Origin: Lunatimonas salinarum
GTDB taxonomy: Bacteria > Bacteroidota > Bacteroidia > Cytophagales > Cyclobacteriaceae
Length of the DNA: 64,000 nt
Direction of reading: 5' to 3'
Assembly (NCBI RefSeq): GCF_017811155.1
Contig: NZ_JACVCV010000010.1
Location: forward strand, 62,001 to 126,000
Positions 25,532 to 40,508 of the stretch are shown here, piece after piece; the stretch's first letter is position 1; every line of letters starts with the position of its first letter. The position numbers and the translations under genes were made by a program. The notes under the pieces were generated by a model, which saw nothing but the letters and a program-made list of their open reading frames with translations, was not told the origin of the DNA and searched no databases.

Positions 25532-26494
25532 ATGAAAACCCGTGAAAACATAGATTCGCTCATCGTCAAAAAACTCAGTGGCAAAGCGACCGAGGAAGAA
25601 CTTCAAACGCTGGAAGATTGGAGACAAGCAAGCGAAATAAATCGCCGGTATTTAGCGCAAATGCATAAAATATGGGAAAAATCGATGGATTCTGAAATTT
25701 ACCGGAAAATAGATCTTGACAAAAACTGGAAAAAGTTTCAAACCCACTCTGAATGGGGTAAAGGCAAGAGTCTATCATTTCACACTAGCTGGTGGAAGGT
25801 AGCTGCGGTAATTTTCTTTACCGTTAGTGGTGCATGGATGGGGTATAAATTTTGGATCGGGCAACTAACGGTTACTATAGCTGCCCATGAACAGTCAGTA
25901 TCGCACTATCTTCCCGACGGCAGCTTTGTTTACCTTCAGCCCAACTCATCGATTTCCTACATGCCTGAAAGCTTTCAGCATTCGGAACGGAAGGTATATC
26001 TAGTAGGAAAAGCCTACTTCTCGGTCCATAAAAAGGAAAACAGCGCGCACTTTATCATCAATACGTTTAACAGCCAAACGACTGTACTAGGCACCTCGTT
26101 TACCCTCAATTCCGATAAAACAGCAAATTTTACCCGCTTGTCTCTTTACGAAGGAAGGGTTTTGTTTACCAGCATTCGTGGTGACTCTGTAACGCTACTA
26201 CCTGGCGAAAGGGGTATTCTAACAGGGGATAAGCTGATTGAAGAAAATTTTCAGGAGAATCTCAAGTCCTTGAATTTTCAAAATACCCCGGTAGAGGACG
26301 TGTTCAATGCATTGAGCGAAACGTATCTCGTGGATTTTGTCTTGGAGGAGGCCTGGCCTTCCTGCAGAATTAGCGGAAATCTGGATGGCAGTACACTCGA
26401 AGAAACTATGCGACACTTGGAGTTTATCCTGGGAATCAACTACCGCAAAAACGCGCACCTGGTAATCATTGATAAAATAGAATGCCTAGAATAA
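25532..26494 (+). CDS. FecR-family anti-sigma regulator
   Basis: A 320-aa inner-membrane regulator. The cytoplasmic N-terminal part (1-85) would bind the ECF factor encoded just upstream; a membrane helix lies at about 90-110 (WWKVAAVIFFTVSGAWMGYK); the periplasmic FecR domain (about 125-225) contains SHYLPDGSFVYLQPNSSISY and TVLGTSFTLNSD; and a C-terminal DUF4974 domain (about 250-318) has LNFQNTPVEDVFNALSETY. The periplasmic part would contact the STN domain of the TonB receptor at 26817. A stable hairpin lies directly after the stop codon. Confidence 0.93.
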   Translation: MKTRENIDSLIVKKLSGKATEEELQTLEDWRQASEINRRYLAQMHKIWEKSMDSEIYRKIDLDKNWKKFQTHSEWGKGKSLSFHTSWWKVAAVIFFTVSGAWMGYKFWIGQLTVTIAAHEQSVSHYLPDGSFVYLQPNSSISYMPESFQHSERKVYLVGKAYFSVHKKENSAHFIINTFNSQTTVLGTSFTLNSDKTANFTRLSLYEGRVLFTSIRGDSVTLLPGERGILTGDKLIEENFQENLKSLNFQNTPVEDVFNALSETYLVDFVLEEAWPSCRISGNLDGSTLEETMRHLEFILGINYRKNAHLVIIDKIECLE

Positions 26495-26521
26495 TGCCGA
26501 AGGATTTTGGGAATCCGGCAT
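26494..26521 (+). other. Stable hairpin directly after the FecR stop
   Basis: ATGCCG (26494-26499) pairs with CGGCAT (26516-26521), with GATT/AATC extending the stem inward. There is no T run, so it is more likely a processing or stability element between fecR and the receptor gene than a terminator. Confidence 0.45.
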
Positions 26522-26550
26522 CATTCACCTTTCAAGCTAACTACTTAAAA

Positions 26551-26620
26551 GAAATCAAGCCTGCCTACCGGACGGGCCGGCATCCCGATAAAACCGGACA
26601 AGATGTCCCCTTTGAAAAAT
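26551..26620. repeat. Degenerate REP-like GC-rich palindromic sequence
   Basis: AAGCCTGCCTACCGG followed by ACGGGCCGGCATCCCGATAAAACCGGAC resembles the CCTGCCTGCCGGTAGGCAGG palindrome at 39340-39359. It sits just before the first 91-base repeat unit. The rest of the 322-base gap between fecR and the receptor gene is taken up by the hairpin and the repeat units. Confidence 0.4.
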
Positions 26621-26816
26621 CAATTATAGACACATAAAATCGAGCATGACGTAGCCGTCACACACTGGGATGACTATGCTATATGCGAGATTCCATGTGA
26701 CCGCTGAATAACAATTATAGACACATGAAATCGAGCACGACGCAAGCGACACACAGAGGGACGACTGTAATTCGTGCGAGATTCCATCTGATCGCTTAAG
26801 AACAAATTAAAAACAG
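26621..26816 (+). repeat. Two tandem copies of a ~91-base dispersed repeat before the TonB receptor gene
   Basis: Unit 1 begins CAATTATAGACACAT at 26621 and unit 2 begins the same way at 26712, a period of 91 bases. Unit 2 is nearly identical to the unit at 39384-39475 (before the esterase gene): the shared core runs from CAATTATAGACACATGAAAT to GCGAGATTCCATCTGA. After unit 2, CAAATTAAAAACAGATGAAA, containing the receptor start codon, looks like the beginning of a third unit. Each unit has the potential hairpin GCACGA/TCGTGC (GCAT/ATGC in unit 1). Function unknown. Confidence 0.85.
26725..26799 (+). CDS. Putative 24-aa mini-ORF inside repeat unit 2
   Basis: ATG 26725 to TAA 26797-26799 encodes a peptide starting [20 protein letters not shown]. 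The peptide of the matching unit at 39397 begins [20 protein letters not shown]. In unit 1 (26621) the same frame has ATA in place of ATG and a TAG after six codons. Whether it is translated is unknown; it could be a leader peptide or only a by-product of a DNA/RNA repeat. Confidence 0.25.
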   Translation: MKSSTTQATHRGTTVIRARFHLIA

Positions 26817-29381
26817 ATGAAACTAATAGGTACATTTCTTTTTCTGGTGTTGGCAATTGATGTCAACGGACAAGACAATATCATCATTCAGCTCCCCCAG
26901 CAGGAATATAGGATCAGTGATCTTTTGAAGCTCATTAGCGATCAGGCACAGCATTCATTTATCTACCAGTCCTCTGATATACAAACAGAGAGGATAGTGA
27001 CCACGCCGGAAGAAAGGTATGAACTGAGAGCACTTCTAAGCGTCGTTTTTCCCTCTCAGACCCATGAGTACCAGATCAGAGACGGGAAAATCCTTGTCAA
27101 AAGGAAAAAAGATGTAAATCATGTGGGCAACCAAAGGTTTACCGTGAGCGGTTATGTGACAGACAGCACTTCTAGTGAATCACTCATTGGTGCCCATATT
27201 TACTTTCCAGAGCTAAATTCTGGGGTAGTAACCAACGCTTACGGGTATTTCTCGGCCAGCCTTCCGCCCGGCAGCTATACCATCAACGTAGGCTACTTAG
27301 GATATGCCCGATATGAGCAAAGCCTAAATCTAAGTGAGGAAATAAAACTTGATATCGCATTGATACAAAGGGCGAGCACCTTAGCAGAAGTAGATGTATA
27401 TGCGGGCCAGTCCTTAGTCGAGACGTCGCAGATCAGCAGCCTAAAAATACCGGTCCGGCAGATGAGCAACCTGCCTGTATTGCTAGGTGAAACAGACCTA
27501 ATGAAGAGCATCCAACTGCTCCCGGGGGTAAGTGGAGGACTGGAGGGCTTCAGCAACTTTTATGTGCGAGGAGGCGGACCCGACCAAAACCTGATTTTAC
27601 TCGACGGTGTCCCCTTGTATAATACCCAGCATCTATTTGGCTTTCTATCCACGTTTAACAACGACGCCCTCAACAATGTGGATCTCTACAAGGGTGGGTT
27701 TCCTGCCCGCTACGGCGGCAGATTGTCTTCGGTCTTGGACATTCAGATGAAAGAAGGAAATCGTCAGGAATTCCGGGGAGATGCTACCGTGGGGCTGCTT
27801 GCCTCCGCAATCACGCTGGAAGGGCCTATTAATGAACAATCTTCCTTCATGGTTTCCGGTCGTCGTACCTATTGGGATGTTCTTGCACGGCCCATTCTGG
27901 AGTCCATGAACCAAGATATCGGTTACCATTTCTATGACCTATATGCCAAAATTAACCATACATTGTCAGATACTGACAAAATATATTTCAGCATTTACCT
28001 AGGTAACGACAAGCTAACCTTAATGAACGACGACTTAACAGAAAATAGTAGCCAGATAGTCACCAACGAGGAGCGAAACAACCTCAAATGGGGCAATTTC
28101 ATCTCTGCATTCCGGTGGAATCACACCTATAATTCCAAGCTTTTTAGTAATGTCGGCATTACTTACAGCCGGTTTAATTACGACATCCATAACTCATACA
28201 TACGCACATTTAAAGCCGTAGCAGGAAACACACCTGAACCGGAAATTTACAGTAATTCGCTGAACTCAGGGATTGAGGATGTCACAATCAAGGCCGATTT
28301 CGATTTTTTCCCGGTTCCAAAACACACCATCAAATTTGGAAGCTTGCTAACCTACCATACATTTACCCCTAAAGCACTGTCAACCAACAATTTTAACACC
28401 GCAATAAGCCTATTCACCGAACCCATTTCTGCAGTGGAAACCGCAAGCTATTTAGAGGATGATTTCAAACTGGGCAGCAGATTCGATATCAACATAGGAG
28501 CACATTTATCGTCATTTTCGCTGCCGGCAAAAACCTATACTTCGATACAACCCAGAGTTTCTATGAACTACCGGCTGGGCGACAAGCTGTCTACCAAATT
28601 GGCATATGCAAAAATGACCCAATTTTTGCAGCTGTTAACGACAAGTACCATCGGACTGCCTTCCGATCTCTGGGTACCGACAACCGAAAAAATCCCTCCA
28701 CAGGACGCTTATCAGGTAACAGCAGGTGTGGCTTACATTCCTGCTCCAAATTTGGAATTTTCTTTAGAAGGCTACTATAAGAAAATGGATAATCTGCTGG
28801 AATACAAAGAGGGAGTCAACTACGCAGCTATCAATACCGACTGGCAGGAAACGGTAACTTCTGCTGAAGGCCGGAGTTACGGAGTAGAACTTCTGGCCCA
28901 AAAAAAGGCAGGAAAATTTGACGGGTTCATGGGTTATACCCTAGCTTGGACTTTCCGAAATTCTCCGGACCTGAACTTGGGAAAAGAATACTTTTACCGA
29001 TTTGATCGTCGTCACGACTTGAGCCTCGCCATAAACTTCAATAAAAGCACAAGAATGGTATACTCAGGGGTGTGGGTATTTGGTACCGGGCAGGCAGTTA
29101 CCCTACCGGAAGTCCAGTACTTCAATCCGAATAATCAGCTCATTGTGGTATTTAGTGAAAGAGGCGCCTATCGGATGCCTACTTATCACCGCATGGACTT
29201 TAGCGCTTCCCTTATCAAAGAGAAGAAAAAGGGCGAGCGTCGATGGGTTTTTGGAATCTACAATATTTATGCCCGAAGAAACCCTGTTTTTCTGGAGTAT
29301 ATACCAGGAGTAGATGCAGGATTCGTCCAATACAGCCTATTTCAATTAATTCCAAGCATTTCTTACAAACGCAGTTTCTAA
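26817..29381 (+). CDS. TonB-dependent outer-membrane receptor with STN signalling domain
   Basis: An 854-aa receptor. Signal peptide about 1-19 (ending VNGQ); STN domain about 30-95 (YRISDLLKLISDQAQHSFIY), which should contact the FecR regulator; a carboxypeptidase-regulatory-like domain about 105-190 (VSGYVTDSTSSESLIGAHIY); a plug with LLPGVSGGLEGFSNFYVRGG and NLILLDGVPLYNTQHLFGFL (about 235-280); then a 22-strand beta-barrel ending QLIPSISYKRSF. It imports an unknown ligand with TonB energy. With the ECF/FecR pair upstream and the DUF4249 lipoprotein downstream it forms a trans-envelope signalling and uptake unit. There is no SusD partner, unlike the PUL at 45 kb. Confidence 0.93.
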   Translation: MKLIGTFLFLVLAIDVNGQDNIIIQLPQQEYRISDLLKLISDQAQHSFIYQSSDIQTERIVTTPEERYELRALLSVVFPSQTHEYQIRDGKILVKRKKDVNHVGNQRFTVSGYVTDSTSSESLIGAHIYFPELNSGVVTNAYGYFSASLPPGSYTINVGYLGYARYEQSLNLSEEIKLDIALIQRASTLAEVDVYAGQSLVETSQISSLKIPVRQMSNLPVLLGETDLMKSIQLLPGVSGGLEGFSNFYVRGGGPDQNLILLDGVPLYNTQHLFGFLSTFNNDALNNVDLYKGGFPARYGGRLSSVLDIQMKEGNRQEFRGDATVGLLASAITLEGPINEQSSFMVSGRRTYWDVLARPILESMNQDIGYHFYDLYAKINHTLSDTDKIYFSIYLGNDKLTLMNDDLTENSSQIVTNEERNNLKWGNFISAFRWNHTYNSKLFSNVGITYSRFNYDIHNSYIRTFKAVAGNTPEPEIYSNSLNSGIEDVTIKADFDFFPVPKHTIKFGSLLTYHTFTPKALSTNNFNTAISLFTEPISAVETASYLEDDFKLGSRFDINIGAHLSSFSLPAKTYTSIQPRVSMNYRLGDKLSTKLAYAKMTQFLQLLTTSTIGLPSDLWVPTTEKIPPQDAYQVTAGVAYIPAPNLEFSLEGYYKKMDNLLEYKEGVNYAAINTDWQETVTSAEGRSYGVELLAQKKAGKFDGFMGYTLAWTFRNSPDLNLGKEYFYRFDRRHDLSLAINFNKSTRMVYSGVWVFGTGQAVTLPEVQYFNPNNQLIVVFSERGAYRMPTYHRMDFSASLIKEKKKGERRWVFGIYNIYARRNPVFLEYIPGVDAGFVQYSLFQLIPSISYKRSF

Positions 29382-29382
29382 T

Positions 29383-30333
29383 ATGAAAAAAATATCATAC
29401 ATCACTCTGTGCGGCTTTTTGCTGTTATCCTGCGAGGATGACATCAGCATCGATATCATCCGGGAGCAACCCAAGATAGTATTACATGCCTACTTCGAAA
29501 AAGAAAAGCCAATGACCCTAGACCTGCTAAGATCTATTCCTATTCCTAACCAAGTGAATTACAATCGCTCCTTCTACCATATTGATAATGCTGAAGTGAA
29601 CGTGTTTGTGGACGACGTACTTCTGGGAACCATGACCCACGAAGGGTCCGGGGTATATATGTTAGATCAATATCCCGAAGAAAATCACCACTACCGTATA
29701 TCGGTAAAAGCCCAAGGACTGCCAGAAGTGACCACCGATGTTGAAGTTCTACCCTCCCCGCCGAAAGTCAACGACTATAGCTATAACAAAAAGGGTCCGT
29801 TAGGCAACAGTCAGAATCCTTCGGTTGAGCATACCCTCGTCATTGAAAATAATCCTGGTATGACCGTATTTTATAAAATTAGCTTAGATATCCGGGTCAT
29901 TCATTACAAAAAAGGTGAAATACAGAGAGAGGAAATCATCAATTGGTATAGACTGGCCTCTGCCAACCCACTCCTGAAAGATTATACCTGTCTGGAAAAC
30001 TGCTATGGCGATACAGGCAACATGAAAGCGCTTTATTTCAGTAATGAAGCTTTCGGCGACAGCCCGGAAATCACCTTGTTATTGACTACAGACTACTTTG
30101 AAGACTTTGAGGTAGCTTTTCCAAACGAAACGGTAAAAACAGTATACGTACAGTCCATCCAGGTGTCCCACATCTCAAGTTCCCTAATGAATTATAGCAG
30201 ATCTATTTATGATAATAGTAACGCTAATCAGCTATTTCAAGAACCAGTAAGCATCATGTCAAATGTAAACGGTGGATTCGGCGTATTTGGCACGCTGAAC
30301 TCAATAGCATTACCATTCGACTTTTCGGAATAA
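29383..30333 (+). CDS. DUF4249 lipoprotein, partner of the TonB receptor
   Basis: A 316-aa lipoprotein with lipobox LLLSC (Cys17), followed by EDDISIDI. DUF4249 marks are the N-terminal IVLHAYFEKEKPMTLDLLRS, DAEVNVFVDDVLLGTMTHEG (first Ig-like domain), YRISVKAQGLPEVTTDVEVL, and the second half with SIQVSHISSSLMNYSRSIYD and NVNGGFGVFG near the C-terminus. DUF4249 proteins regularly sit next to TonB receptors with an STN/FecR system; a role as surface lid or ligand binder like SusD has been proposed by analogy but is not proved. It starts one base after the receptor's stop, so translation is probably coupled. Confidence 0.9.
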   Translation: MKKISYITLCGFLLLSCEDDISIDIIREQPKIVLHAYFEKEKPMTLDLLRSIPIPNQVNYNRSFYHIDNAEVNVFVDDVLLGTMTHEGSGVYMLDQYPEENHHYRISVKAQGLPEVTTDVEVLPSPPKVNDYSYNKKGPLGNSQNPSVEHTLVIENNPGMTVFYKISLDIRVIHYKKGEIQREEIINWYRLASANPLLKDYTCLENCYGDTGNMKALYFSNEAFGDSPEITLLLTTDYFEDFEVAFPNETVKTVYVQSIQVSHISSSLMNYSRSIYDNSNANQLFQEPVSIMSNVNGGFGVFGTLNSIALPFDFSE

Positions 30334-30659
30334 CCATCCATTGTTCCCAGATCGGTAAACATTCCTGTTCTTGTCCCCTTTACCATAGGCTGCGTGAGAC
30401 TACTTATCCGCATTGCCTAAGCAAATGGTTCTGCATGACAAACCTTTGATTATAATATGAAAAGTCTATAGAATGCTTTTACACCGAGTTGAGCTATCCA
30501 TATAACCATAATCCAAAAACAGGTTAACCCTTCTGGCCTTCCTGATAATTCCACGAAAACATTACTATTCTGTGACTTAGCCGACCTGATCCTTGTGTAC
30601 TCACAGAAAGCGTTGTAATTTTTAAGCTTGAATGATCTCTACCGAAACCCTAAATAGCT
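30334..30659. other. Intergenic stretch without a recognised gene
   Basis: 326 bases between the DUF4249 gene and the DUF4838 gene. The only structure seen is a weak 6-bp inverted repeat, CTGTGA at 30570-30575 with TCACAG at 30601-30606. No exact promoter consensus, repeat copy or coding frame was found. Confidence 0.5.
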
Positions 30660-32594
30660 ATGAAATCCGATATACCCAACACATTTGGCAGTGAACACGC
30701 TATCAAACCAGGCATACAGACCCTTGGGATCCTGCCTGTGGCGATTCTTCTTCTGTTACTTCTGTCGTTAGAATCTATGGGCCAGGATCTCTTATTGGTT
30801 CAAAATGGCCGGTCAGATTACCGCATCGTATTGCCACATGAACCGGAACAACAGGAAATCCACGCCGCCAAAATCTTACAGGACTACCTCTTCCGAATTT
30901 CGGGTGCACTGCTTCCTTTGGGTCACGACAACCTCCCCTCCACCGAAAAGGAAATCCTGATAGGACGCACCAACCGACCCGAATCCAGATCCATTGACTT
31001 TGCAACCCTGGAAGACGAGGGACTACTCATCCGTACCGAGGCCCAGAAGCTTCTCCTTGCGGGAGGCCCAAAGAAAGGCGTACTAAGTGCAGTCTACCAC
31101 TTTTTGGAAGAGGAATTGGGATGCAAAAAATACACCTCTCAGGTGACCCATCTGCCCAGCATGAAGCGTATCGCACTGGGCAAGCTCGACCTTGTTACCA
31201 TCCCAGTGTTCTCATTTCGGGACGTGTATTACCAAGATGTATATGATCCCGAGTTTATGGATTGGCACGGGCTTCATTCCTTCGGAGGTAAAGGCTCATC
31301 TCCTACCGAATGGGGCTATTGGGTTCATACCTTTCACAACTTACTGGATCCTGCGGAGTACGGGGAAACCCATCCGGAATATTTTAGCTTCTATGACGGC
31401 GAACGCCATCCGGGCCTCATCCCCTCTTGGGATGGCTCCAGCGTACAGCCCGAATCACAGCTTTGTCTCAGCAATCCAGAGGTATTGGAAATCGTATGCG
31501 AAAACCTCGCAAAAGCCATGGAGGAAAAACCAGAAGCCCGGTATTGGTCAGTCAGTCAAAACGATAATGTGCGGTATTGCCAGTGCGAACACTGCGCTGC
31601 ATTGGATCAACAATACGCCGCCTATGAGCCGGAGGAAAAAATGTACACCACGCATGGAAGCAAATATCCGGCGTTGGGCATGGGTTCCATGCTGTGGTTC
31701 GTGAATCAAGTAGCCGATCGGTTTCCTGACAAAATTATTTCCACGCTCGCTTACCAGTATACGCGCGTGCCGCCAAAGGACATTGTACCTCGAAAAAATG
31801 TCAATATCATGCTTTGCAGCATTGAAAGCACCCGCAACGAACCCTTGGAGAGCGGCGACCCAGACTTTGCCAGTGACCTGATCGGTTGGGGTAAAATCAC
31901 CGACAATATCTTGGTTTGGGATTACAACATCCAGTTTTCCCACCTGCTGGCACCCTTCCCAAACTTGCGTACGCTCCAGCCAAACATACGGTTTCTCCGA
32001 GACAATCGGGTAAGCGCGGTGTTTGCACAAGGAAACATACAGCAGGGAGGGGAATTTGCGGAACTCCGTGCCTACCTGCTCTCGAAACTGCTCAAAAATC
32101 CCGATGTGGATATGCAGTCAGAAATGGACGGCTTTTTACTTGCCTACTATGGACAGGCGGCGGGACACATCAAGCAATACATCCATCTGATGCATGACCA
32201 CAATAAAGGTGCAGAAACCCCTAAACTCTCCATCTTCGGCTCTCCCAGTCAGCAAACCGACAGCTTCCTCACCCCGGAACTGATCAAAGCCTATGATGCG
32301 CTCTTTGATAAAGCACTCTACGCGACAAAAAACGATCCTGAACGGATGGAACGTGTAAAATCGGCCCAGCTTCCGATCCTTTTTGCTAAGCTGGAGCTAG
32401 CCCGGACAGAACGCTCCAAGTGGAACTCACTGTCTAAGGAAGAACTAGGCCACGCAGGACTTCCCGCCAAAATAAGCGAGATGCTTTACGATCTGACGTA
32501 TCATGCGATGAAGACTGGAGTGAGCCGATATGCTGAGTGGCACACCACCCCCGCTGAATACCTCCATAAATATCTCAACCAACTGGGAGAATAA
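30660..32594 (+). CDS. Exported DUF4838 protein with GH67-N-like domain
   Basis: A 644-aa exported protein. A hydrophobic N-terminal segment near residues 23-41 (LGILPVAILLLLLLSLESMG) acts as a signal after an unusually long polar leader. Residues about 43-165 match the fold found at the N-terminus of GH67 alpha-glucuronidases (EQQEIHAAKILQDYLFRISG, KEILIGRTNRPESRSI, KKGVLSAVYHFLEEELGCKK). Then comes the DUF4838 domain (about 225-460), with YWSVSQNDNVRYCQCEHCAA and FAQGNIQQGGEFAELRAYLL. It is likely a glycan-related hydrolase or binding protein, but no catalytic residues can be named. It stands alone; an in-frame Met nearer the hydrophobic segment is not available, so the long leader is kept. 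Confidence 0.82.
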   Translation: MKSDIPNTFGSEHAIKPGIQTLGILPVAILLLLLLSLESMGQDLLLVQNGRSDYRIVLPHEPEQQEIHAAKILQDYLFRISGALLPLGHDNLPSTEKEILIGRTNRPESRSIDFATLEDEGLLIRTEAQKLLLAGGPKKGVLSAVYHFLEEELGCKKYTSQVTHLPSMKRIALGKLDLVTIPVFSFRDVYYQDVYDPEFMDWHGLHSFGGKGSSPTEWGYWVHTFHNLLDPAEYGETHPEYFSFYDGERHPGLIPSWDGSSVQPESQLCLSNPEVLEIVCENLAKAMEEKPEARYWSVSQNDNVRYCQCEHCAALDQQYAAYEPEEKMYTTHGSKYPALGMGSMLWFVNQVADRFPDKIISTLAYQYTRVPPKDIVPRKNVNIMLCSIESTRNEPLESGDPDFASDLIGWGKITDNILVWDYNIQFSHLLAPFPNLRTLQPNIRFLRDNRVSAVFAQGNIQQGGEFAELRAYLLSKLLKNPDVDMQSEMDGFLLAYYGQAAGHIKQYIHLMHDHNKGAETPKLSIFGSPSQQTDSFLTPELIKAYDALFDKALYATKNDPERMERVKSAQLPILFAKLELARTERSKWNSLSKEELGHAGLPAKISEMLYDLTYHAMKTGVSRYAEWHTTPAEYLHKYLNQLGE

Positions 32595-32633
32595 ACGAGA
32601 AATTAACGCTAACGCACCCTCCCGGAAAGCTTC

Positions 32634-33968
32634 CTATAACCCTTCGTCTGCGGTCAACGGATTGGCTGCCCGAATCATCCCATCAGGTAACTCTCCCTCT
32701 GTAGAGGCCACCACCGTACAAACCATGGCATCCCCCGTGACATTCACGACTGTCCGAAACATATCGATGATACGGTCTGGGGCCAAGATCAAGGCGATCC
32801 CTGCCGCCGGAACGTTGATAGACTCCAGCACAATGATCAGCATGATAAGCCCCGCCCCTGGGACGCCCGCCGTGCCAATAGAGGCTAGGGTAGCCGTCAG
32901 CACAATCATAAGTTGCTGCGTGAGTGTAAGGTCCATTCCGAGAGCCTGCGCAATAAACACAGAGGCAACACCCTGATAAAGACTGGTCCCATCCATATTG
33001 ATCGTAGCACCCAAGGGCAGCACAAAGCTGCTTACCTCCTCGGAAACTCCCAGTTCCTTCTCTACCTGCCGCATGGTGACGGGCAGCGTAGCCGAGCTGG
33101 AGCTGGTAGAAAAGGCCAATAACTGGGCGGGTCTCAACGCCTTGAAAAAATCCATGTACTTCACCTTGGTAAATGCCATCAGGATCAGTGGATAAGTCAA
33201 CATAATCATCACCAAAAGTCCGCCTACTACTACCAAGGTGTATTTTAGCAACGCCAGCAACAAGGAAACCGCAGAATCTGGATTGTCACCGGTGATTTCC
33301 ACAATCAACGAGGCCATCAACGCGAATACCCCATAAGGAGCGATGATCATGATAAATCCGACGATTTGAATGATCACGTCGTTCATTCCATCAAAAAAGG
33401 CAATCACCGGCTTGGCTTTGCTTTTGGGGATTTTTAATAGCGCTATTCCTACAATGATGGCAAAAAACACCACCTGCAACATGCTCCCATTATTGGTTGT
33501 TGCCAGAAACACATTCTCTGGAACCATGTCCACAAAGGGCTGCAAGGGACTTTGTTGCTTTAATGACTCGGCGGCACTTGTTTTAGAACCCACACTTTCG
33601 TCGTAGAGGGCCATCAGGTTATCCCTAGTATCCACGGGCAGACTCTTGCCCGGCTTAAACACATTCACCAACAACAGCCCAAGCGACACGGATAACACCG
33701 TGGTTATCATATAGGCCGATATGGTCTTACCGCCGATCCTCCCCAGCTTCGTAACATCGCCTAAATTGGAAACTCCTACGATCAGCGAGGCCAAGACCAA
33801 CGGCACCGCAATCATCTTCAGCGCATTGATGAAAACCGTCCCTACGGGCTTGATATAATTGATGACAAAATCGGGAGAAATGCCGAACTTGACGATAATC
33901 AGCCCGAGAACGAGGCCTAAGACCAACCCAATAATGATCTGGGTGTGCAGGGGTATCCTTTTTTTCAT
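32634..33968 (-). CDS. Dicarboxylate/amino acid:cation symporter (DAACS family)
   Basis: A 444-aa transporter importing glutamate, aspartate or C4-dicarboxylates with Na+ or H+. Membrane helices cover most of the chain. The family's serine-rich hairpin loop appears as FSTSSSSATLPVTMRQVEKE, and the substrate/cation region as SFVLPLGATINMDGTSLYQG, followed by GTAGVPGAGLIMLIIVLES (HP2 hairpin) and ILAPDRIIDMFRTVVNVTGD with the conserved Asp/Arg/Asn. This matches GltP/DctA proteins at near full length. Its upstream gene aroC ends 26 bases before it on the same strand, so they may share a transcript. Confidence 0.94.
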   Translation of the reverse strand: MKKRIPLHTQIIIGLVLGLVLGLIIVKFGISPDFVINYIKPVGTVFINALKMIAVPLVLASLIVGVSNLGDVTKLGRIGGKTISAYMITTVLSVSLGLLLVNVFKPGKSLPVDTRDNLMALYDESVGSKTSAAESLKQQSPLQPFVDMVPENVFLATTNNGSMLQVVFFAIIVGIALLKIPKSKAKPVIAFFDGMNDVIIQIVGFIMIIAPYGVFALMASLIVEITGDNPDSAVSLLLALLKYTLVVVGGLLVMIMLTYPLILMAFTKVKYMDFFKALRPAQLLAFSTSSSSATLPVTMRQVEKELGVSEEVSSFVLPLGATINMDGTSLYQGVASVFIAQALGMDLTLTQQLMIVLTATLASIGTAGVPGAGLIMLIIVLESINVPAAGIALILAPDRIIDMFRTVVNVTGDAMVCTVVASTEGELPDGMIRAANPLTADEGL

Positions 33969-33994
33969 AAATCAGTGGTTAGTGGTGGTATAGT

Positions 33995-35071
33995 CTAAAG
34001 TTTGCTGAGCCGGTTGAGCAGGAGAAAGTCGGCGAGTACCAACGCGCACATGGCCTCCACAATGGGTACGGCCCTGGGGACTACACAGGGGTCGTGCCTG
34101 CCCTTACCTGACACAATCGTCGCTTCGCCGGCCTCGTTGACGCTTTCTTGATCCTGCATGATGGTGGCCACAGGTTTAAAGGCAACCCGGAAATAGATAT
34201 CTTCGCCGTTGGAGATCCCGCCTTGGATACCTCCTGAGTGGTTGGTACGAGTACGGACTCGATCCCCTTCTCTGTAAAACGCATCGTTATGTTGGGAGCC
34301 CCGCATCTGCACACCTTCAAATCCACTTCCGTATTCGAACCCCTTCACCGCATTGATGCTAAGCATGGCATGCCCCAACGCCGCATGAAGCCTGTCAAAA
34401 ACCGGCTCTCCAAGACCGGGCGGCACGCCGGTGGCCACGCAGGAAACCACGCCCCCTACCGTGTCGCGATCTTTTCGGATCTCATCGATATAAGCTATCA
34501 TCTGCTCTGCTACCACGGGATCCGGGCAGCGAACAATATTTTCTTCTGTACGGGTCAGATCAAGCTGGGAGTACGGCTTATCTAGGCTGATGTGGCCTGC
34601 CTGACTCACGTACGCACTAACGTGCACGCCAAAACTTTTGAGCATCAGCTTAGCCACTGCGCCGGCCGCTACTCGGGCCGCAGTCTCCCGTGCGCTGCTA
34701 CGTCCCCCACCCCGGTAATCCCGCACCCCATATTTCTGGTGGTAGGTATAGTCTGCATGCGAAGGACGGAACTTGTCTGCAATATGGGAATAATCTTTGC
34801 TCTTTTGATCGGTGTTCAGTACTATGATGGAGATGGGGGTGCCGGTGCTTTTTCCTTCGAATACCCCAGAGAGGATCTGAAACTCGTCTTCCTCTTTCCG
34901 TTGCGTAGTGATCTTGGATTGGCCGGGCTTGCGCCGCTGCATCTCCGAACGGATGAATGCTTCGTCTATTTCTACGCCCGCCGGACAGCCGTCTATAATC
35001 ACTCCCAACCCCTTGCCGTGTGATTCGCCAAAGGTGGTGATGGTAAAGGCCCTGCCAAATGTATTTCGCAT
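33995..35071 (-). CDS. aroC: Chorismate synthase
   Basis: Last enzyme of the shikimate pathway: it eliminates phosphate from EPSP to form chorismate, with reduced FMN as cofactor. It is 358 aa and begins [20 protein letters not shown], with signature [19 protein letters not shown], then [20 protein letters not shown] and [29 protein letters not shown] and [20 protein letters not shown], all standard AroC motifs. The start codon lies three bases after the BatD stop, suggesting cotranscription with that unrelated gene. Confidence 0.97.
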
Positions 35072-35074
35072 GAA

Positions 35075-36520
35075 TTATTTTTTCTTAATGATCAGAAATC
35101 CCAATAATCCCACTGCACCAAACAGCAGCAGGTTGATCAGGACCGAAAAATAGTACTTATATTTTTGGTTTAAAAGCTTATTATCCTCCACATCAATCAA
35201 ATCATAGATTCCTCCCAAGCGGGAGGACGATATGGCTTGATTAATTTTACTTTCTCCGGTTACGTTGACCGTCAAAGACGGGCGGAGCGTATCGTATTTA
35301 TCCAAAGCCGGATTAAAATAGATCCACTCAAAATGGTCTCGCATCGCTACCTCCTCGGCTTCGTTTAACGTGATAAAGTAACTAAACTCCTTCATGCCAG
35401 TCACCCTACCGCGATTTTTGTTTACCTGTATCCGTTCGTTCGGGTCAAAGGAATTGAGTTTTTGCGCATTCATTCTCCTCGGTGAACGAATGGAGCTAAT
35501 ATTCCCCTCCCCTGTGACACCAAAATTGTACGTAAATCCCTCTCCCGTAGCTACCTGATCCTGGCTTGCGCTTTCACGTAGCTGGTAGTTTCCCACACTT
35601 ACCTCATTTCTGAGTGGATGCGGAGGAAGTGGTTTCACGACCACCTGCTTTGGCTGGGAATAAAAGGTCTTAAAATCCTGCAACCGATTGTTGCCAAAAA
35701 AGCTTGGATTTCGGGCCACCCGGTACTTGATCATCTCCCAACCCACTGAAGGAAATTCTATTTTACCCGGATTAAAGGGGAAAAACGTAGCCTGATAGAT
35801 TTTAAACCGTGTCCAAGCTTTGCCGTTGATTTCAACTTTATCAGGTTGAATACTCGTAATATTGAAATTTTCCTCCCAGGCGTTGGCTGGCTTGATCTGA
35901 TTGATAATCTTTTCCAATTGCTTGCCGGCATCATGGAAGTTAAACAGGGCCTGATTTTCCTCTGAAAAGAAAAAGGCTAGGGTTACGTTTACACCTTCCC
36001 CGGTATAGACCTCGTTTTTGTCAACGGTCAGTGAAAAAAATGCATCATCATCCACCTCTACATACTCAGTCTCTTCCCTGCTTCCACCAAAGAAATCATC
36101 AAATGGATCTATGGCGCGGCTTCTTCCTCCTGCAGTGGCCCGAGGATCCACCACAGTGATGGTTTTTCCCCCAGAGGAAACGCTGCGCCCATTTACAGAA
36201 ATACTGAATCCATTGAGTGTAAACTGCCCTTTTCGAAGCGGTTTGTAATATTGGATCACGCTGGTGGAGCTGCTCATCTGTCCGTTGATGATATTCATGG
36301 ACGAACTCTGAGAGACCCCCTGTTTTTGGAATCCGGGGATTTCAGGCAGAGGATCATAGGATCGGATCTTTTCTTCGGTAACCGTTATTTTGATGTTGAA
36401 GGTTTCATTCAGGGCCACTTCATCCGGTCCCAGCTCGATCCTTACCTCCTGCGCATTGACCGACAAACAAATTATCGGGAAAAGAAATATGAAAAGGAAG
36501 CTGAATTTCGTTATAGGCAT
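35075..36520 (-). CDS. batD: BatD-family protein (oxygen-tolerance / Bat operon family)
   Basis: From ATG 36520 it is 481 aa with a signal peptide (MPITKFSFLFIFLFPIICLS, ending VNAQ); an earlier in-frame ATG (36577) only adds residues in front of it. The mature part has repeated Ig-like BatD domains (VRIELGPDEVALNETFNIKI, FTLNGFSISVNGRSVSSGGK, VDKNEVYTGEGVNVTLAFFF, SSIRSPRRMNAQKLNSFD). A single membrane helix at the C-terminus (SVLINLLLFGAVGLLGFLII) anchors the periplasmic domains. In other Bacteroidota BatD sits with BatA/B/C VWA proteins and a MoxR ATPase; here it is on its own beside aroC. Role unclear. Confidence 0.9.
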   Translation of the reverse strand: MPITKFSFLFIFLFPIICLSVNAQEVRIELGPDEVALNETFNIKITVTEEKIRSYDPLPEIPGFQKQGVSQSSSMNIINGQMSSSTSVIQYYKPLRKGQFTLNGFSISVNGRSVSSGGKTITVVDPRATAGGRSRAIDPFDDFFGGSREETEYVEVDDDAFFSLTVDKNEVYTGEGVNVTLAFFFSEENQALFNFHDAGKQLEKIINQIKPANAWEENFNITSIQPDKVEINGKAWTRFKIYQATFFPFNPGKIEFPSVGWEMIKYRVARNPSFFGNNRLQDFKTFYSQPKQVVVKPLPPHPLRNEVSVGNYQLRESASQDQVATGEGFTYNFGVTGEGNISSIRSPRRMNAQKLNSFDPNERIQVNKNRGRVTGMKEFSYFITLNEAEEVAMRDHFEWIYFNPALDKYDTLRPSLTVNVTGESKINQAISSSRLGGIYDLIDVEDNKLLNQKYKYYFSVLINLLLFGAVGLLGFLIIKKK

Positions 36521-36649
36521 GTGAAACACGTTCAGAGTCGGAGTTACAAATAAACAAGGATATTTTAAACGTAACAAATGTTATTTAGCTAACGTAAAAA
36601 CTCTTAAAATTATTTAACCTTTTAATAGACCCAACTAAACGATAAGATT

Positions 36650-36841
36650 ATGGTAGAATACGTTAAAACCATTTTACTCAAGGTGAGTTTTGACAGAAAG
36701 CTTTTCGAGAAGGAGTTGCGCAAGGGACTTAATCTGTTGGTTCCCTCCGAGTTGGAGGAATTTAGGGAATGGTGTTATCGAACATTTGCAAAAGTCTATG
36801 AACCGGTTTTGAATAAATATTTTGTCAAACTCTCTGGATAA
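36650..36841 (+). CDS. Conserved-looking 63-aa small protein
   Basis: A short protein, MVEYVKTILLKVSFDRKLFE at its N-terminus, rich in charged residues and predicted all helical, with two aromatic stretches (EEFREWCYRTFAKVYEPVLN). I cannot name a domain, but the well-spaced position, the terminator 11 bases after its stop and coding character argue that it is real. It is divergent from the BatD gene and convergent with queG. Confidence 0.7.
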   Translation: MVEYVKTILLKVSFDRKLFEKELRKGLNLLVPSELEEFREWCYRTFAKVYEPVLNKYFVKLSG

Positions 36842-36851
36842 AATTACCTGT

Positions 36852-36884
36852 AGCCCCTTACTTCGGTCAGGGGCTTTTCTTTTT
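36852..36884 (+). terminator. Terminator after the 63-aa gene, overlapping the queG 3' end
   Basis: AGCCCCT (36852-36858) pairs with AGGGGCT (36869-36875) around TACTTCGGTC, followed by TTTCTTTTT. The stop codon of convergent queG falls in the hairpin loop. Confidence 0.85.
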
Positions 36885-37808
36885 CACAAATTGTACATTT
36901 CGCATCAGACCCTCCCACTTGGTGCGCTTTACGGCAGACTTTTGAAAAACCTTCCCAAAGGTCTCTCGTGTCATTTCCTCCCAGTCTTTTTTTCCAAATT
37001 CCTTTAACAACGGGTGCGGCAAGAAAGCCTCCTCGCGGTGAGGGCTAGCAAAACGGTTCCAAGGACATACGTCTTGGCAGATATCGCAGCCAAAGACCCA
37101 ATTCTCAAACTTGCCGTGCACTTGGGTAGGCAATGCATCCTTGAGCTCAATGGTAAAGTAGGAAATGCAACGGGACCCATCCACTACTCCTGACCCTACA
37201 ATTGCGTCGGTGGGGCAGGCATCTACGCAGCGGGTACAGGTACCGCAATAATCCCCGATAAACGGATCGTCCGGTGCTAAGGGCAAGTCGATAATCAGCT
37301 CTGCCAAAAAGAAAAAGCTCCCCATTTGCCGATTGAGCAACAGACTGTTTTTGCCCAGCCATCCCAATCCGCTACGCTGCGCCCATTGCCGCTCCATCAC
37401 AGGTGCACTGTCCACAAAAGCCCGACCGTTGATTTCCCCGATATCCTCCCGCAGTAACTCCAGAAAAGCTTTCAACTTATCCCTTACCACCCAGTGATAA
37501 TCCTTCCCATAGGCGTATTTGGCGAGCTTGTAATCCTCATCGCCCTCTGGAAGTTTCTCCTCGGGAAAATAATTGAAAATCAGGCTGACGACTGACTTAG
37601 CGTCATCCACGAGCTTGGTGGGATCCAGCCGCTTGTCAAAGTGATTGGCCAGATAAGCCATTTGACCATGGTAATTGCGGGCAAGCCATGCCTCTAACTT
37701 GGGCGCTTCTTCCTCCAGAAAACAGGCCGTTGCAATCCCGCAAAATTCAAAGCCCAGCCTTTTGGCAGTTTGTTTGACGATTGCTGCATGTTGTTCCGGA
37801 AGGGTCAT
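36867..37808 (-). CDS. queG: Epoxyqueuosine reductase QueG
   Basis: Last step of queuosine synthesis in tRNA: a cobalamin and [4Fe-4S] dependent reduction of epoxyqueuosine. The 313-aa protein has the N-terminal cobalamin-binding part ([20 protein letters not shown] with the conserved Asp, and [20 protein letters not shown]) and two clusters of cysteines: [16 protein letters not shown] near residue 187 and [11 protein letters not shown] near 243. It starts at ATG 37806-37808, upstream of which lies ruvB on the same strand (29 bases apart). Confidence 0.95.
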
Positions 37809-37837
37809 GTAATAAGGTTTGGGTATTTTGACAGGTA

Positions 37838-38872
37838 TCAGCCAAAGAGGCTGCCAGTACTTGCGCCGGCGTCGGGGTTTAGATTCAGGTGCTTGTAGGC
37901 CAGAGGGGTCGCTTCTCGGCCACGTGCGGTCCGCTTGAGGTAGCCTTCCTGAATCAAAAACGGCTCGTAGACCTCTTCGATCGTTTCAGCCTCTTCCCCG
38001 CAGGCGGTAGCAATGGTCGTAATGCCTACTGGCCCTCCCTTAAACTTATGAATGATGGTGGACAGGATACGGTTGTCCATTTCATCCAAGCCGTTTTCAT
38101 CGACATCCAAGGCAGCAAGCGCTACCTTGGCAATGCCCAAGTCGATGGTTCCATTGCCCTTTATTTCGGCAAAATCCCGGGTCCTTCGTAGAAGCATATT
38201 AGCAATACGGGGGGTACCTCGGCTCCGCCTTGCAATCTCGAAGGCTGCAGGCTCGTGTATGGGCGTGCCCAGAATACCTGCAGATCGCATGACGATATCC
38301 GTGAGTAACTTGGCATCGTAGTATTCCAGACGGGCATTGATGCCAAAGCGGGCACGAAGTGGAGAGGTCAACAAGCCGGACCGGGTAGTGGCACCGATCA
38401 GGGTAAAGGGGTGCAGGGAAATCTGTACCGACCGAGCATTGGGGCCCGAATCCAGCATGATGTCTATACGGAAATCCTCCATGGCCGAATACAGGTACTC
38501 CTCCACAATGGGGTTTAACCGATGGATTTCGTCGATAAAAAGTACATCGCCCTCATCCAGGTTAGTGAGCAGCCCCGCTAGGTCGGAGGGTTTATCCAGT
38601 ACCGGGCCGGAGGTGATCTTCAGACTAGAACCCAGCTCGTTGGCGATGATATGGCTCAGGGTGGTTTTGCCCAGGCCCGGAGGACCATGTAGGAGCACGT
38701 GATCTAGGGACTCGCTGCGCTTTCTGGCGGCAAGCACGTAAATCTTGATATTTTCCACGATCTTTTTCTGACCGGTGAAATCGTCAAAGCTCAACGGACG
38801 CAGGGCCTTTTCAATTTCCCTGTCCGATGAGCTTAGGTGTTCGTCATCTCCTCGCAAATAATCTTCTCTCAT
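37838..38872 (-). CDS. ruvB: Holliday junction branch-migration helicase RuvB
   Basis: Motor of the RuvABC complex that moves Holliday junctions during recombination repair. The 344-aa protein has [20 protein letters not shown], Walker [19 protein letters not shown], Walker [14 protein letters not shown], sensor/arginine finger region [20 protein letters not shown], and the C-terminal winged helix ending [20 protein letters not shown]. Neighbouring ruvA and ruvC are not in the window. It is transcribed toward queG. The upstream region is a 616-base gap holding a relic gene and a repeat. Confidence 0.97.
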
Positions 38873-38999
38873 AGCTGCTTGATACTGCGCAAATACAAAT
38901 ATAAGAAATTTGAGCGGAGGCTAGAGTAAATATTGAAACCATCGTCTGAGTAGACTACTTCTTTATGTAGAACAAAACTGTCCACTTCGTATTACAGCA

Positions 39000-39116
39000 G
39001 TTTCCGATCCATTTTTCGCCTTTAGACAGCGTCATCTCTGCCAAGTCCTCTTTGGACTGAATCATGTCATTAATCCGCTCTTCGAAGGTGTACTTGGTGC
39101 TAAAAACGGTGTACCA
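39000..39116 (-). pseudogene. Relic of a SNF2-family helicase C-terminus
   Basis: A leftward frame encodes TKYTFEERINDMIQSKEDLA followed by EMTLSKGEKWIGN. This closely matches the extreme C-terminal region of SNF2/Rad54-type helicases, where a TFEERI-x-x-MI helix and an LSKGEKWIG(N) segment end the protein. The similarity stops on both sides; it is only about 39 residues, flanked by a poly-T tract at 39119-39129, and the frame ends with a stop at 38955. No helicase motifs I-VI exist nearby. It is best explained as the remains of a deleted gene. The surrounding gap (38873-39488) otherwise holds only the repeat units. Confidence 0.6.
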
Positions 39117-39261
39117 TGCCTTTTTTTTGTGCCAAAACACCGAGCATGAGTTCAAAAAATGGATTCGATACCTACAGCACGCCAATCAAAACCAAACTAG
39201 GATTTGACCGAGCTCTTTCCTAATTTCACCAACTGTAAAACCCTCCCCAAACGACCGATAA

Positions 39262-39488
39262 CCATAAACCTATGAAATCGAGCAAAACGTATCCGTCACA
39301 CACTTGGATGCCCTGATAGCTATCGGGGCAAACATGCGACCTGCCTGCCGGTAGGCAGGGATTCCATGTGACCTTTGAAAAATCAATTATAGACACATGA
39401 AATCGAGCACGACGCAAGCGACACACGAAGGGACGATTGTAATACGTGCGAGATTCCATCTGACCGCTAAAAAACAAATTATAAACAG
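39262..39488 (+). repeat. Two tandem copies of the ~91-base dispersed repeat before the esterase gene
   Basis: Unit 1 (39262-39383) begins CCATAAACCTATGAAATCGAGC and unit 2 (39384-39475) begins CAATTATAGACACATGAAAT; the gene start CAAATTATAAACAGATGAAA looks like the opening of a third. Unit 1 differs from its partner at 26621 by two inserted GC-rich palindromes: CCCTGATAGCTATCGGGGC at 39311-39329 and CCTGCCTGCCGGTAGGCAGG at 39340-39359, the latter splitting the GCGAGATTCC stretch. Unit 2 is nearly identical to the unit at 26712. Confidence 0.85.
39340..39359. repeat. REP-like palindrome inserted in repeat unit 1
   Basis: CCTGCCTGCCGGTAGGCAGG is a near-perfect inverted repeat of REP type. Comparison with the unit at 26621 shows it interrupts a GCGAGATTCCATGTGA stretch that is continuous there. 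Confidence 0.65.
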
Positions 39489-39492
39489 ATGA
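39397..39492 (+). CDS. Putative 31-aa mini-ORF overlapping the esterase start
   Basis: ATG 39397 to TGA 39490-39492 encodes a peptide beginning [20 protein letters not shown]. The stop overlaps the esterase start codon in the form ATGA, an arrangement typical of translational coupling. It is the counterpart of the mini-ORF at 26725. Evidence for translation is positional only. Confidence 0.3.
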
Positions 39493-40508
39493 AAACCATC
39501 TACCTCTTTATCCTGCTGATTTGTCTAAATTGCCTTCCGGCGACCGCCCAAGAGGGCGGCAAAGAACGCATCAAGGTATACAGCCAAGCACTCGAAGGCA
39601 ACCTGATCGGAGACCCGGCTGAGCGGGACGTGACCGTCTACCTGCCCCCTTCTTATAAAAGCAATCCGGATCGCCGCTATCCCGTGCTATATGTGCTTCA
39701 TGGCTTTACCGACACCGACTCCCAATGGTTTGGTTGGGAAACGCACTGGATAAACCTGCAAACTGTCATAGAAAAATCCCTCTCCGAAGGCCTTTCCAAA
39801 GAGATGATCGTGGTAATGCCTAACGCCTACAACCGCTTCAAGGGAAGCATGTACGCCAACTCGCCCACCATAGGCGATTGGGAAACCTTCGTGACCAAAG
39901 AACTGGTCGCCCATATTGACACCAACTACCGCACTCTGGCCAATAGGAACAGCCGGGGATTGGCGGGGCATTCCATGGGCGGATATGGCACCTTACGCCT
40001 GGGCATGAAAAACCCCGACGTCTATGCAGCCATCTACGCCCTCAGTCCGTGCTGCATGGAGGGTGGGGCCAATACCAATACGGAACAAATGGCCAAGTTA
40101 GAAGCCTTTACCCCAGAGCAACTGGAGGACGCTAACTTCTTCGAAATTGCCGCCTTTGCCACCTCTGCTGCTTTTGCCCCCAATCCCCAAAACCCGCCTT
40201 TGTACCTAGACCTGCCTGCAAAGGGTGGAGAACTACGACAAGATGTGATCAACAAGATCATAGCCAACCGCACGCTGAACCATGTGGATCAATACATCCA
40301 CAACCTCAAAAAACTGAAGGCCATTGCCTTGGATGCGGGAATTCAGGATCGGGGCATCAGCGAAGCGAGCAAGAAGCTGCACGAGCTTTTGGATTCGTAC
40401 CAAATTCCCCATTTTTACGAAAGCTACCAAGGAGATCACCTGAATCGGATTGCAGAACGAATTCAGACAAAGGCGCTTCCATTTTTTTCCGAAAATCTAA
40501 TGTTCTGA
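39489..40508 (+). CDS. Exported alpha/beta-hydrolase esterase (esterase D / feruloyl-esterase-like family)
   Basis: A 339-aa protein with a signal peptide (residues 1-21, [20 protein letters not shown], cleaved about A-Q). The PF00756-type esterase fold shows [36 protein letters not shown] (oxyanion region), nucleophile motif [17 protein letters not shown] with Ser162, and [13 protein letters not shown] near residue 317 providing the likely catalytic His. Family members cleave acyl or feruloyl esters from plant polysaccharides or act on other esters. It lies directly after the dispersed repeat and near the PL11 lyase, so a role in side-chain removal from pectin-like material is plausible but inferred. 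Confidence 0.88.

Follow-up and report, generated by a model that had tools for sequence, protein, structure and literature searches.

We analyzed a 64,000-nucleotide stretch of the genome of Lunatimonas salinarum (contig NZ_JACVCV010000010.1, positions 62,001 to 126,000; hereafter, the window), in which the genes for a TonB-dependent receptor and a putative esterase are each preceded by two tandem copies of a repeat unit of about 91 bases. A preliminary interpretation made from the letters alone (the sequence-only reading) had pointed to both pairs and suggested that the repeat either inserts at or duplicates the start regions of genes, or that a mobile or regulatory element had been co-opted as a 5' leader. 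Both pairs are real: the only array that Tandem Repeats Finder listed for the window spans 26613-26822 before the receptor (period 91, 2.3 copies, score 241), and a second, more divergent pair lies before the esterase at 39272-39494 (Table 1). Adjacent units within an array overlap by one common ATGAAA, and the last six bases of both arrays, again ATGAAA, are the first two codons of the following gene (26817 and 39489), as the earlier remark that the gene start resembles the opening of a third unit correctly anticipated. The gene-proximal units of the two arrays had been called almost identical; they are indeed similar (90/98 bases identical), although that wording was slightly too strong.

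Table 1. Repeat units, their segments and host genes in the window (positions are those of the window).
Feature	Position	Strand	Evidence
Sequence upstream of array 1, possibly left from an older unit that decayed	26549-26639	+	Covariance model R1, 21.3 bits, E 0.46 (weak); tail caattatagacacataaaa readable
Array 1, unit 1; left end ATAAAA (mutated from ATGAAA), right end ATGAAA at 26725-26730	26634-26730	+	Profile match 26635-26730, E 6.7e-22
Array 1, unit 2; 98 bases, ending in the first two codons of the receptor	26725-26822	+	R1, 87.7 bits, E 1.5e-14; profile E 4.4e-29
Guide-like segment TTCCATCTG, complement of CAGATGAAA except for one base	26782-26790	+	Sequence; covariation across units
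Right end CAGATGAAA; its ATGAAA is the receptor start codon and Lys2	26814-26822	+	Sequence; ORF (open reading frame) 26817-29381
Host gene, TonB-dependent receptor (plug, beta-barrel and carboxypeptidase-regulatory-like domains)	26817-29381	+	Pfam PF00593, PF07715, PF13715
Array 2, unit 1; longer through nested palindromes (39310-39329, 39340-39359)	39272-39402	+	Profile E 3.3e-15; sequence
Array 2, unit 2; ending in the first two codons of the esterase	39397-39494	+	R1, 97.6 bits, E 1.5e-16; profile E 4.2e-29
Guide-like segment TTCCATCTG of array 2, unit 2	39454-39462	+	Sequence
Right end CAGATGAAA; esterase start codon at 39489	39486-39494	+	Sequence
Host gene, putative esterase	39489-40508	+	Pfam PF00756, E 3.2e-28

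Comparison of many such sequences shows that copies of the unit lie between two ATGAAA hexamers, mostly at the first codons of a gene, that congeners often have the same ATGAAA start and no copy, and that the coding sequence is unaltered. The genome to which the window belongs (G000; 5.46 Mb, 166 contigs) contains far more than the four copies initially seen, well above what chance would give. A one-unit query against the whole genome gave 64 alignments at E ≤ 1 (best E 2e-38; 40 of 93 candidates scored), some of which were short tail fragments, and a covariance model built from 26 diverse units matched all 52 of the candidates scored, so that G000 holds at least 52 copies. These were spread over many contigs and both strands. 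When applied to the window and 400 kb sampled elsewhere in G000, the model recovered both window arrays and one weak remnant in the window (E 0.46), and outside the window it gave two further weak matches (E 0.07 and 0.10).

Relatives of the unit were found by the covariance model in 40 of 78 genomes of the family and 17 of 198 genomes of the phylum, G000 included; copy numbers are lower bounds because only the best 52 (family set) or best 20 (phylum set) candidates per genome were scored. A pattern for the unit's tail, which requires TTCCAT and a final ATGAAA and thus fixes those letters by construction in the loci it retrieves, hit at least 115 stretches among 84,980 species genomes. Carriers among the 80 stretches listed included Algoriphagus, Lunatibacter, Cyclobacterium, Agaribacillus, Chryseotalea, Labilibaculum, Natronoflexus, Prolixibacteraceae, and Flavobacteriales metagenome-assembled genomes. 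Of three carrier names whose lineages were checked, two belong to Bacteroidota and one, BMS3Abin03, is unclassified. No exact match to the tail pattern was found in viral contigs. We regard the units as an element family across Bacteroidota, a description of which was not found in the literature searched (open-licence PubMed Central text).

In most copies, the terminal ATGAAA is the start codon and Lys2 of an unrelated gene. Here, a gene start means the opening of a frame of 60 or more codons from a simple ORF caller rather than from curated annotation. By this definition, 31 of the 40 arrays in G000 open on a gene (including short frames of 71, 77, 82, and 87 codons and one array ending in ATGCAA, and leaving out three matches without a preceding unit, L020, L022, and L023 at 714), as do 17 of the 19 arrays, L316 included, in a single-contig genome, G140. 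For comparison, ATGAAA sites in 464 kb of G000 comprised 42 at gene starts, 88 at other non-coding positions, and 308 within genes, and the corresponding counts in 400 kb of G140 were 75, 107, and 502. With eight doubtful frames per genome taken as starts in these controls (50/130 and 83/182, respectively), non-coding ATGAAA sites would predict 38-46% gene starts, which the arrays exceeded in both genomes (odds ratio 5.5, p = 1.3e-5 for G000; odds ratio 10, p = 1.9e-4 for G140). The copies therefore do not lie at random with respect to genes; random placement had been named by the sequence-only reading, as had a total of only four copies with a simple recent duplication in relatives, as speaking against its proposal. 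In 12 copies, the frame that follows is short or doubtful; none of these is a clear case of an interrupted gene, L026 being the least certain.

A complete census of one young subfamily in G140 yielded 15 right ends, each with a left end (14 by pattern; the fifteenth left arm has diverged), all belonging to single units. Fourteen of the 15 open on a gene (p = 3e-4 against 83/182). The ten host proteins scanned with Pfam were of nine kinds, with two short-chain dehydrogenases, and the hosts include a photolyase, CrcB, a CDP-alcohol phosphatidyltransferase, an ABC ATPase, a LacI regulator, a CBS protein, and LolA. More generally, the host genes of the copies differ widely, and no common pathway is evident. 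The bias toward gene starts can reflect targeting or purifying selection; the census copies are nearly identical and therefore young, which speaks for some targeting.

We searched for 27 host genes in three relatives, and 14 of them gave orthologs that aligned from the start codon. Among 26 start-aligned ortholog pairs, the unit was absent from 19 and present in seven; a further 21 pairs were unaligned at the start. All 11 genes with a unit-less ortholog had at least one such ortholog starting with ATGAAA, although retaining only orthologs that align from the start codon favors similar starts. In the cleanest pair, the filled site L008 and the empty site L129 (G002), the left flanks are identical at 56 of 60 positions up to ATGAAA, which is followed directly by TACCT at the empty site and by two units and then ATGAAA TACCT at the filled one. 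At L003, different unit subtypes stand on the same gene in G000 and G002, and no full unit was present in G001 or G003, suggesting independent insertion or replacement. Dispersed copies on both strands, mostly before the starts of unrelated genes and at sites empty in congeners, thus bear out the first half of the earlier proposal, that of a repeat inserting at gene start regions. As a separate observation, the ortholog in G002 (L126) of the gene at L038 starts with ATGAAATCGAGCACGACA, which matches the first 17 bases of a unit and is fused in frame; this N-terminus was perhaps taken over once the rest of an insertion had been deleted.

Which of the two ATGAA copies belongs to the site and which to the element can be read from the exceptions. 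Where the right end was ATGAAA and the left end was confidently placed, units with a left ATGAA led into a gene in 89 of 105 cases, versus 2 of 8 for units with a left NNGAA other than ATG; the left hexamer was ATGAAA in 132 of 161 units, several of the remainder being left ends misplaced by the script. These sets require a final ATGAAA. Without any constraint on the end, right ends in 294 units, a set that still contains tail-pattern loci, were ATGAAA in 279, ATGAAT in eight (one at a unit-unit junction), ATGAAC in one, and ATGAAG in none, and the units ending in ATGAAT or ATGAAC had ATGAAA at the left wherever it was readable. Since copies in non-ATG targets still end in ATGAAA, the left copy would be the target, without target duplication, and the ATGAAT and ATGAAC right ends behind a left ATGAAA suggest that base 6 is host-derived and that the core target is ATGAA. 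These comparisons support a reading in which the left ATGAA, usually followed by A, is the target, that is, the old start codon, and the right one was brought by the element as the new start. The same two classes of exception led us to reject a target-site duplication by staggered cuts, and the other half of the earlier proposal, a simple duplication of gene starts, is not upheld because the element seems to bring the terminal ATGAAA with it.

The unit is about 85-105 bases long and runs from ATGAAA to a terminal ATGAAA, with the consensus ATGAAATC...CATGA...ACACACAG.GGGATGATTAT...ATTCCATCTGACC..TAAAAAACAAATTATAAACAGATGAAA. Arrays consist of n units and part of another, such as CAAATTATAAACAG-ATGAAA, whose ATGAAA usually opens the next gene. 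A left arm starting with the target ATGAAA pairs with a right arm ending in TTCCAT, and subfamilies change both arms jointly (TCGAGC/GCGAGA, TGCCC/GGGCA, TAGCC/GGCTA, TACCC/GGGTA, and CATCC/GGATG). Paired cells amounted to 96.7% in this left stem and 99.0% in the right-end helix, and none of 500 shuffles reached the value of either helix for covariation score or for share of paired cells. In the array 2 unit listed as longer in Table 1, two different palindromes of 20 bases each, GCCCTGATAGCTATCGGGGC and CCTGCCTGCCGGTAGGCAGG, are nested at fixed places; the same nesting was seen in several other units, as if second-order repeats take the unit as their target.

A guide-like segment, TTCCATNTG, is complementary to both ends of the unit, and covariation supports its pairing both with ATGAA on the left and with CANATGAA at the right end, base 4 staying unpaired. 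In 240 of the 261 copies that could be scored among 294 units, the guide base following CAT was complementary to the base that precedes the right-end ATG (C-G 147, G-C 87, A-T 6; 33 not scorable). The fourth base of ATGAAA was unmatched by the guide in every scored unit: the guide read TTCCAT in 249 (forced in tail-pattern loci), TCGCAT in nine, TTACAT in two, and TCACAT in one, and never T[TC]TCAT (0/261). If the guide were fully matched (TTTCAT), its complement would be ATGAAA, a target inside the element, so the constant mismatch may keep the element's complementary strand free of ATGAA. At five covarying positions in 107 units, there were 467 Watson-Crick pairs, two G.T pairs, and 66 mismatches; this near absence of G.T suggests that the pairing is selected at the level of DNA rather than RNA.

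Taken as a mobile element, the unit would land 3' of the ATGAA of the old start codon and bring its own ATGAA as the new one, and tandem arrays would form because each right end recreates the target. Guide pairing at the DNA level would direct both cleavage and target choice, by analogy with IS200/IS605 and REP (repetitive extragenic palindromic) elements, and a single-strand (HUH/Y1) transposase would presumably act in trans. After insertion, the old ribosome-binding region would drive a short upstream frame within the unit (about 24-31 codons in many G000 copies), and the gene would then be translated from the element's A-rich leader, AAATTATAAACAG, which has A at -12, -13, and -6 and C at -3. 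In Flavobacterium johnsoniae, a member of this phylum, whose mRNAs lack Shine-Dalgarno sequences, adenines at -12/-13, -6, and -3 favor initiation (PMC6847099). The upstream frame is not a conserved leader peptide, its length varying across species.

Several known systems resemble the unit in part. IS608 inserts 3' of TTAC, which is retained in the left flank, and reads its ends and target by base pairing; the base after the target is preferred in both IS608 (TTAC|C) and ISDra2 (TTGAT|G), and each end of IS608 has a hairpin with a guide on its 5' side (PMC5934647). Like these IS200/IS605 elements and their non-autonomous derivatives, the unit appears to insert 3' of a short, fixed target kept in the left flank, with no sign of duplication, and it has a hairpin, a preferred base after the target, and ends and target that are apparently read by a guide. 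The complementarity of its guide to the putative cleavage sites is of the IS200/IS605 type, whereas the guide's position and length are unlike those of IS608. Unlike the IS200/IS605 elements, the unit has one main hairpin, a guide 3' of it that is common to both ends, no transposase gene inside and none found flanked by the unit, and it targets ATGAA at start codons and restores the start codon. REP, BIME, and REPIN sequences, mobilized by RAYTs (REP-associated tyrosine transposases; TnpA_REP), are likewise short, palindromic, high in copy number, mostly intergenic, and presumably moved in trans, but the unit is longer, forms direct tandem arrays, shows no GTAG or CGTC tag, and has its position and orientation fixed at start codons. 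REPs with the CGTC tag, too, seem to have no dedicated transposase (PMC3733652).

Other small repeats were compared as well. Correia elements are small interspersed repeats near genes, as are reportedly the BOX and RUP repeats of pneumococcus and a MITE (miniature inverted-repeat transposable element) of Porphyromonas gingivalis, and the unit resembles them in this respect; none of these is known to require that its end coincide with the start codon of the gene that follows. A MITE of a DDE transposon was rejected, as the ends of the unit are direct (ATGAA...ATGAA) rather than inverted and no duplication is present at non-ATG targets.

On these grounds, we consider it probable, with some reserve, that the unit is a short, non-autonomous hairpin mobile element that targets ATGAA and works like IS200/IS605 or REP elements; as the mobilizing enzyme was not found, we claim a likeness in mechanism and not membership of the IS200/IS605 family. 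A number of observations weigh against this interpretation. No transposase tied to the unit was found in the surroundings of Y1_Tnp genes or in the neighborhoods of units: 95 stretches around Y1_Tnp genes (68 + 27, a few overlapping, which cover part of the Y1 matches) contained two full units and one partial unit, two carriers, G222 (12 matching, diverged copies) and G011 (six), gave no Y1_Tnp match, two RAYT genes of G000 (L094 and L095) adjoin unrelated palindromes, and no longer version of the G140 subfamily that could be its parent was found at up to three mismatches. No replication-linked strand bias, such as the preference of IS200/IS605 elements for the lagging-strand template, was visible by eye in G140, where orientation is, however, confounded with genes. 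The target motif hardly varies across copies, the guide lies 3' of the main hairpin and not 5' as in IS608, 21 of 261 copies are non-complementary at the variable guide/right-end base, and two of five covariation measures (pairs changed on both sides and further pair types) were no better than in shuffles because few pairs vary. Among the congener sites, L111, L120, L132, and perhaps L114 count as empty, yet bases resembling the unit's tail precede the start, so that they may be decayed or deleted older insertions, and at L018/L117, the filled site carries about nine extra bases before the left ATGAAA. Finally, searches of the three relatives gave no ortholog of the window receptor, and those of the esterase start with GTGAAC and ATGAAC rather than ATGAAA, so the two window insertions lack an empty-site proof of their own.

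With regard to candidate enzymes, Y1_Tnp matches were present in 11 of 12, 11 of 12, and 10 of 10 genomes in the sets searched (G001 and G002 in two sets), and no Y1 gene flanked by units was seen in the stretches examined. A tblastn search with three Y1 proteins against the fetched loci matched only L209 and L226, some distance from units. Several loci deserve mention in their own right. An IS200-type tnpA at L348 (G229:C32) is followed, after about 110 bases, by an array of several units in antisense orientation, which has ATGAAT as its right end and does not lead into a gene. At L078 (G000:C166), an IS200-type transposase is followed by hairpin repeats whose tail CTATAAACATG resembles the start-codon unit tail TTATAAACACATG. 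The RAYT genes at L094, L095, L097, and L099, from this genus and another of the family, lie near palindromes of their own (GGGTGTAG...CTACACCC and CCAATTTGCAATTGG). Inspected by eye, the translation at L413:2314-3963 (G140:C1) runs in frame from a RAYT-like HUH domain into an apparent aerobic coproporphyrinogen oxidase, so that a transposase-like protein may be fused there to an enzyme of heme biosynthesis.

Alternatively, selection may have spread the unit as a cis-regulatory RNA leader: it would be a translational switch, with TTCCATCTG sequestering the start codon of the gene or pairing with an upstream start, and copies would be kept as gene control. Most copies do end at a start codon, and predicted folds agree with such a role: one strong hairpin and a short right-end helix formed in six of the seven sequences folded, placing the gene's AUG in the stem of the second hairpin (six pairs, CAUCUG-N23-CAGAUG), and the RNAalifold consensus contained the same AUG-bearing helix. 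Against this, the folding energy of single units improves only modestly on that of shuffles, congeners differ in whether they carry a copy, the length of the upstream frame changes from one species to another, and the host genes share no evident pathway. No Rfam family matched the window at 26300-39700 (E ≤ 1) or 17 loci (gathering score). G.U intermediates are nearly absent (2 of 469 standard pairs), a scarcity that is unusual for RNA. We therefore consider a selected RNA leader unlikely, although this evidence is compatible with regulation as a by-product. The same scarcity of G.T pairs favors DNA pairing over insertion through an RNA intermediate, either by reverse transcription or by a bridge-RNA-like recombinase guided by a transcript of the unit, with mRNA start regions as targets. 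IS110 bridge RNAs reportedly direct the recombination of target and donor, and such a route, which we also hold to be improbable, would explain why gene starts are preferred over other ATGAAA sites and how a single guide contacts both ends.

The unit could also belong to the known REP/RAYT class, as a palindromic repeat mobilized by TnpA_REP for which start codons are special only through the motif. It is short, palindromic, and high in copy number, G000 carries RAYT-like genes, and a Bacteroidetes subclass, 2.6, with atypical structures has been described (PMC6006769). Nevertheless, the unit is about 95 bases long instead of 20-40, its direct tandem arrays do not fit, and its hairpin foot was ATGAAA in 26 of 26 diverse aligned units, with the REP tetranucleotide GT[AG]G absent there. 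RAYTs here have different palindromes of their own, the single unit found within a RAYT stretch was about 3.4 kb from the RAYT, and the REPtron arrangement, in which units would flank a RAYT gene, was not seen in the stretches examined. The excess at gene starts would, moreover, require another cause, and class membership seems unlikely. Least probable by far is that a gene-start region was duplicated locally in the ordinary way and carried to other places by recombination: the repeats are direct and in tandem, and at L024/L138, one site in two species, the left junction is the same and the tails differ, but dozens of unrelated genes are involved, congener sites lack the unit, and the architecture is common across the phylum. 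Copy number and unit-less congener sites likewise led us to reject a simple duplication.

Returning to the ATGAA-targeting mobile element, we tentatively extend this interpretation, as a proposal that may well prove wrong, to phylum-wide minimal DNA parasites that home to start codons. Their built-in guide would read ATGAA, with its mismatch avoiding self-complementarity, and a trans-acting enzyme, so far unrecognized, would favor translated or transcribed starts. The re-supplied start codon and leader would let them persist and spread through dozens of genes, rewiring 5' leaders and breaking no protein. As a rule, mobile elements survive by keeping clear of genes; the present one appears to hit a gene at its most sensitive spot, the start codon, and to repair the damage with a start codon of its own. 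If this is true, such units would naturally supply Bacteroidota with new 5' leaders, upstream reading frames, and translation signals, would complicate the annotation of start sites, and would offer a very small, sequence-defined system for studying how base pairing picks a DNA target.
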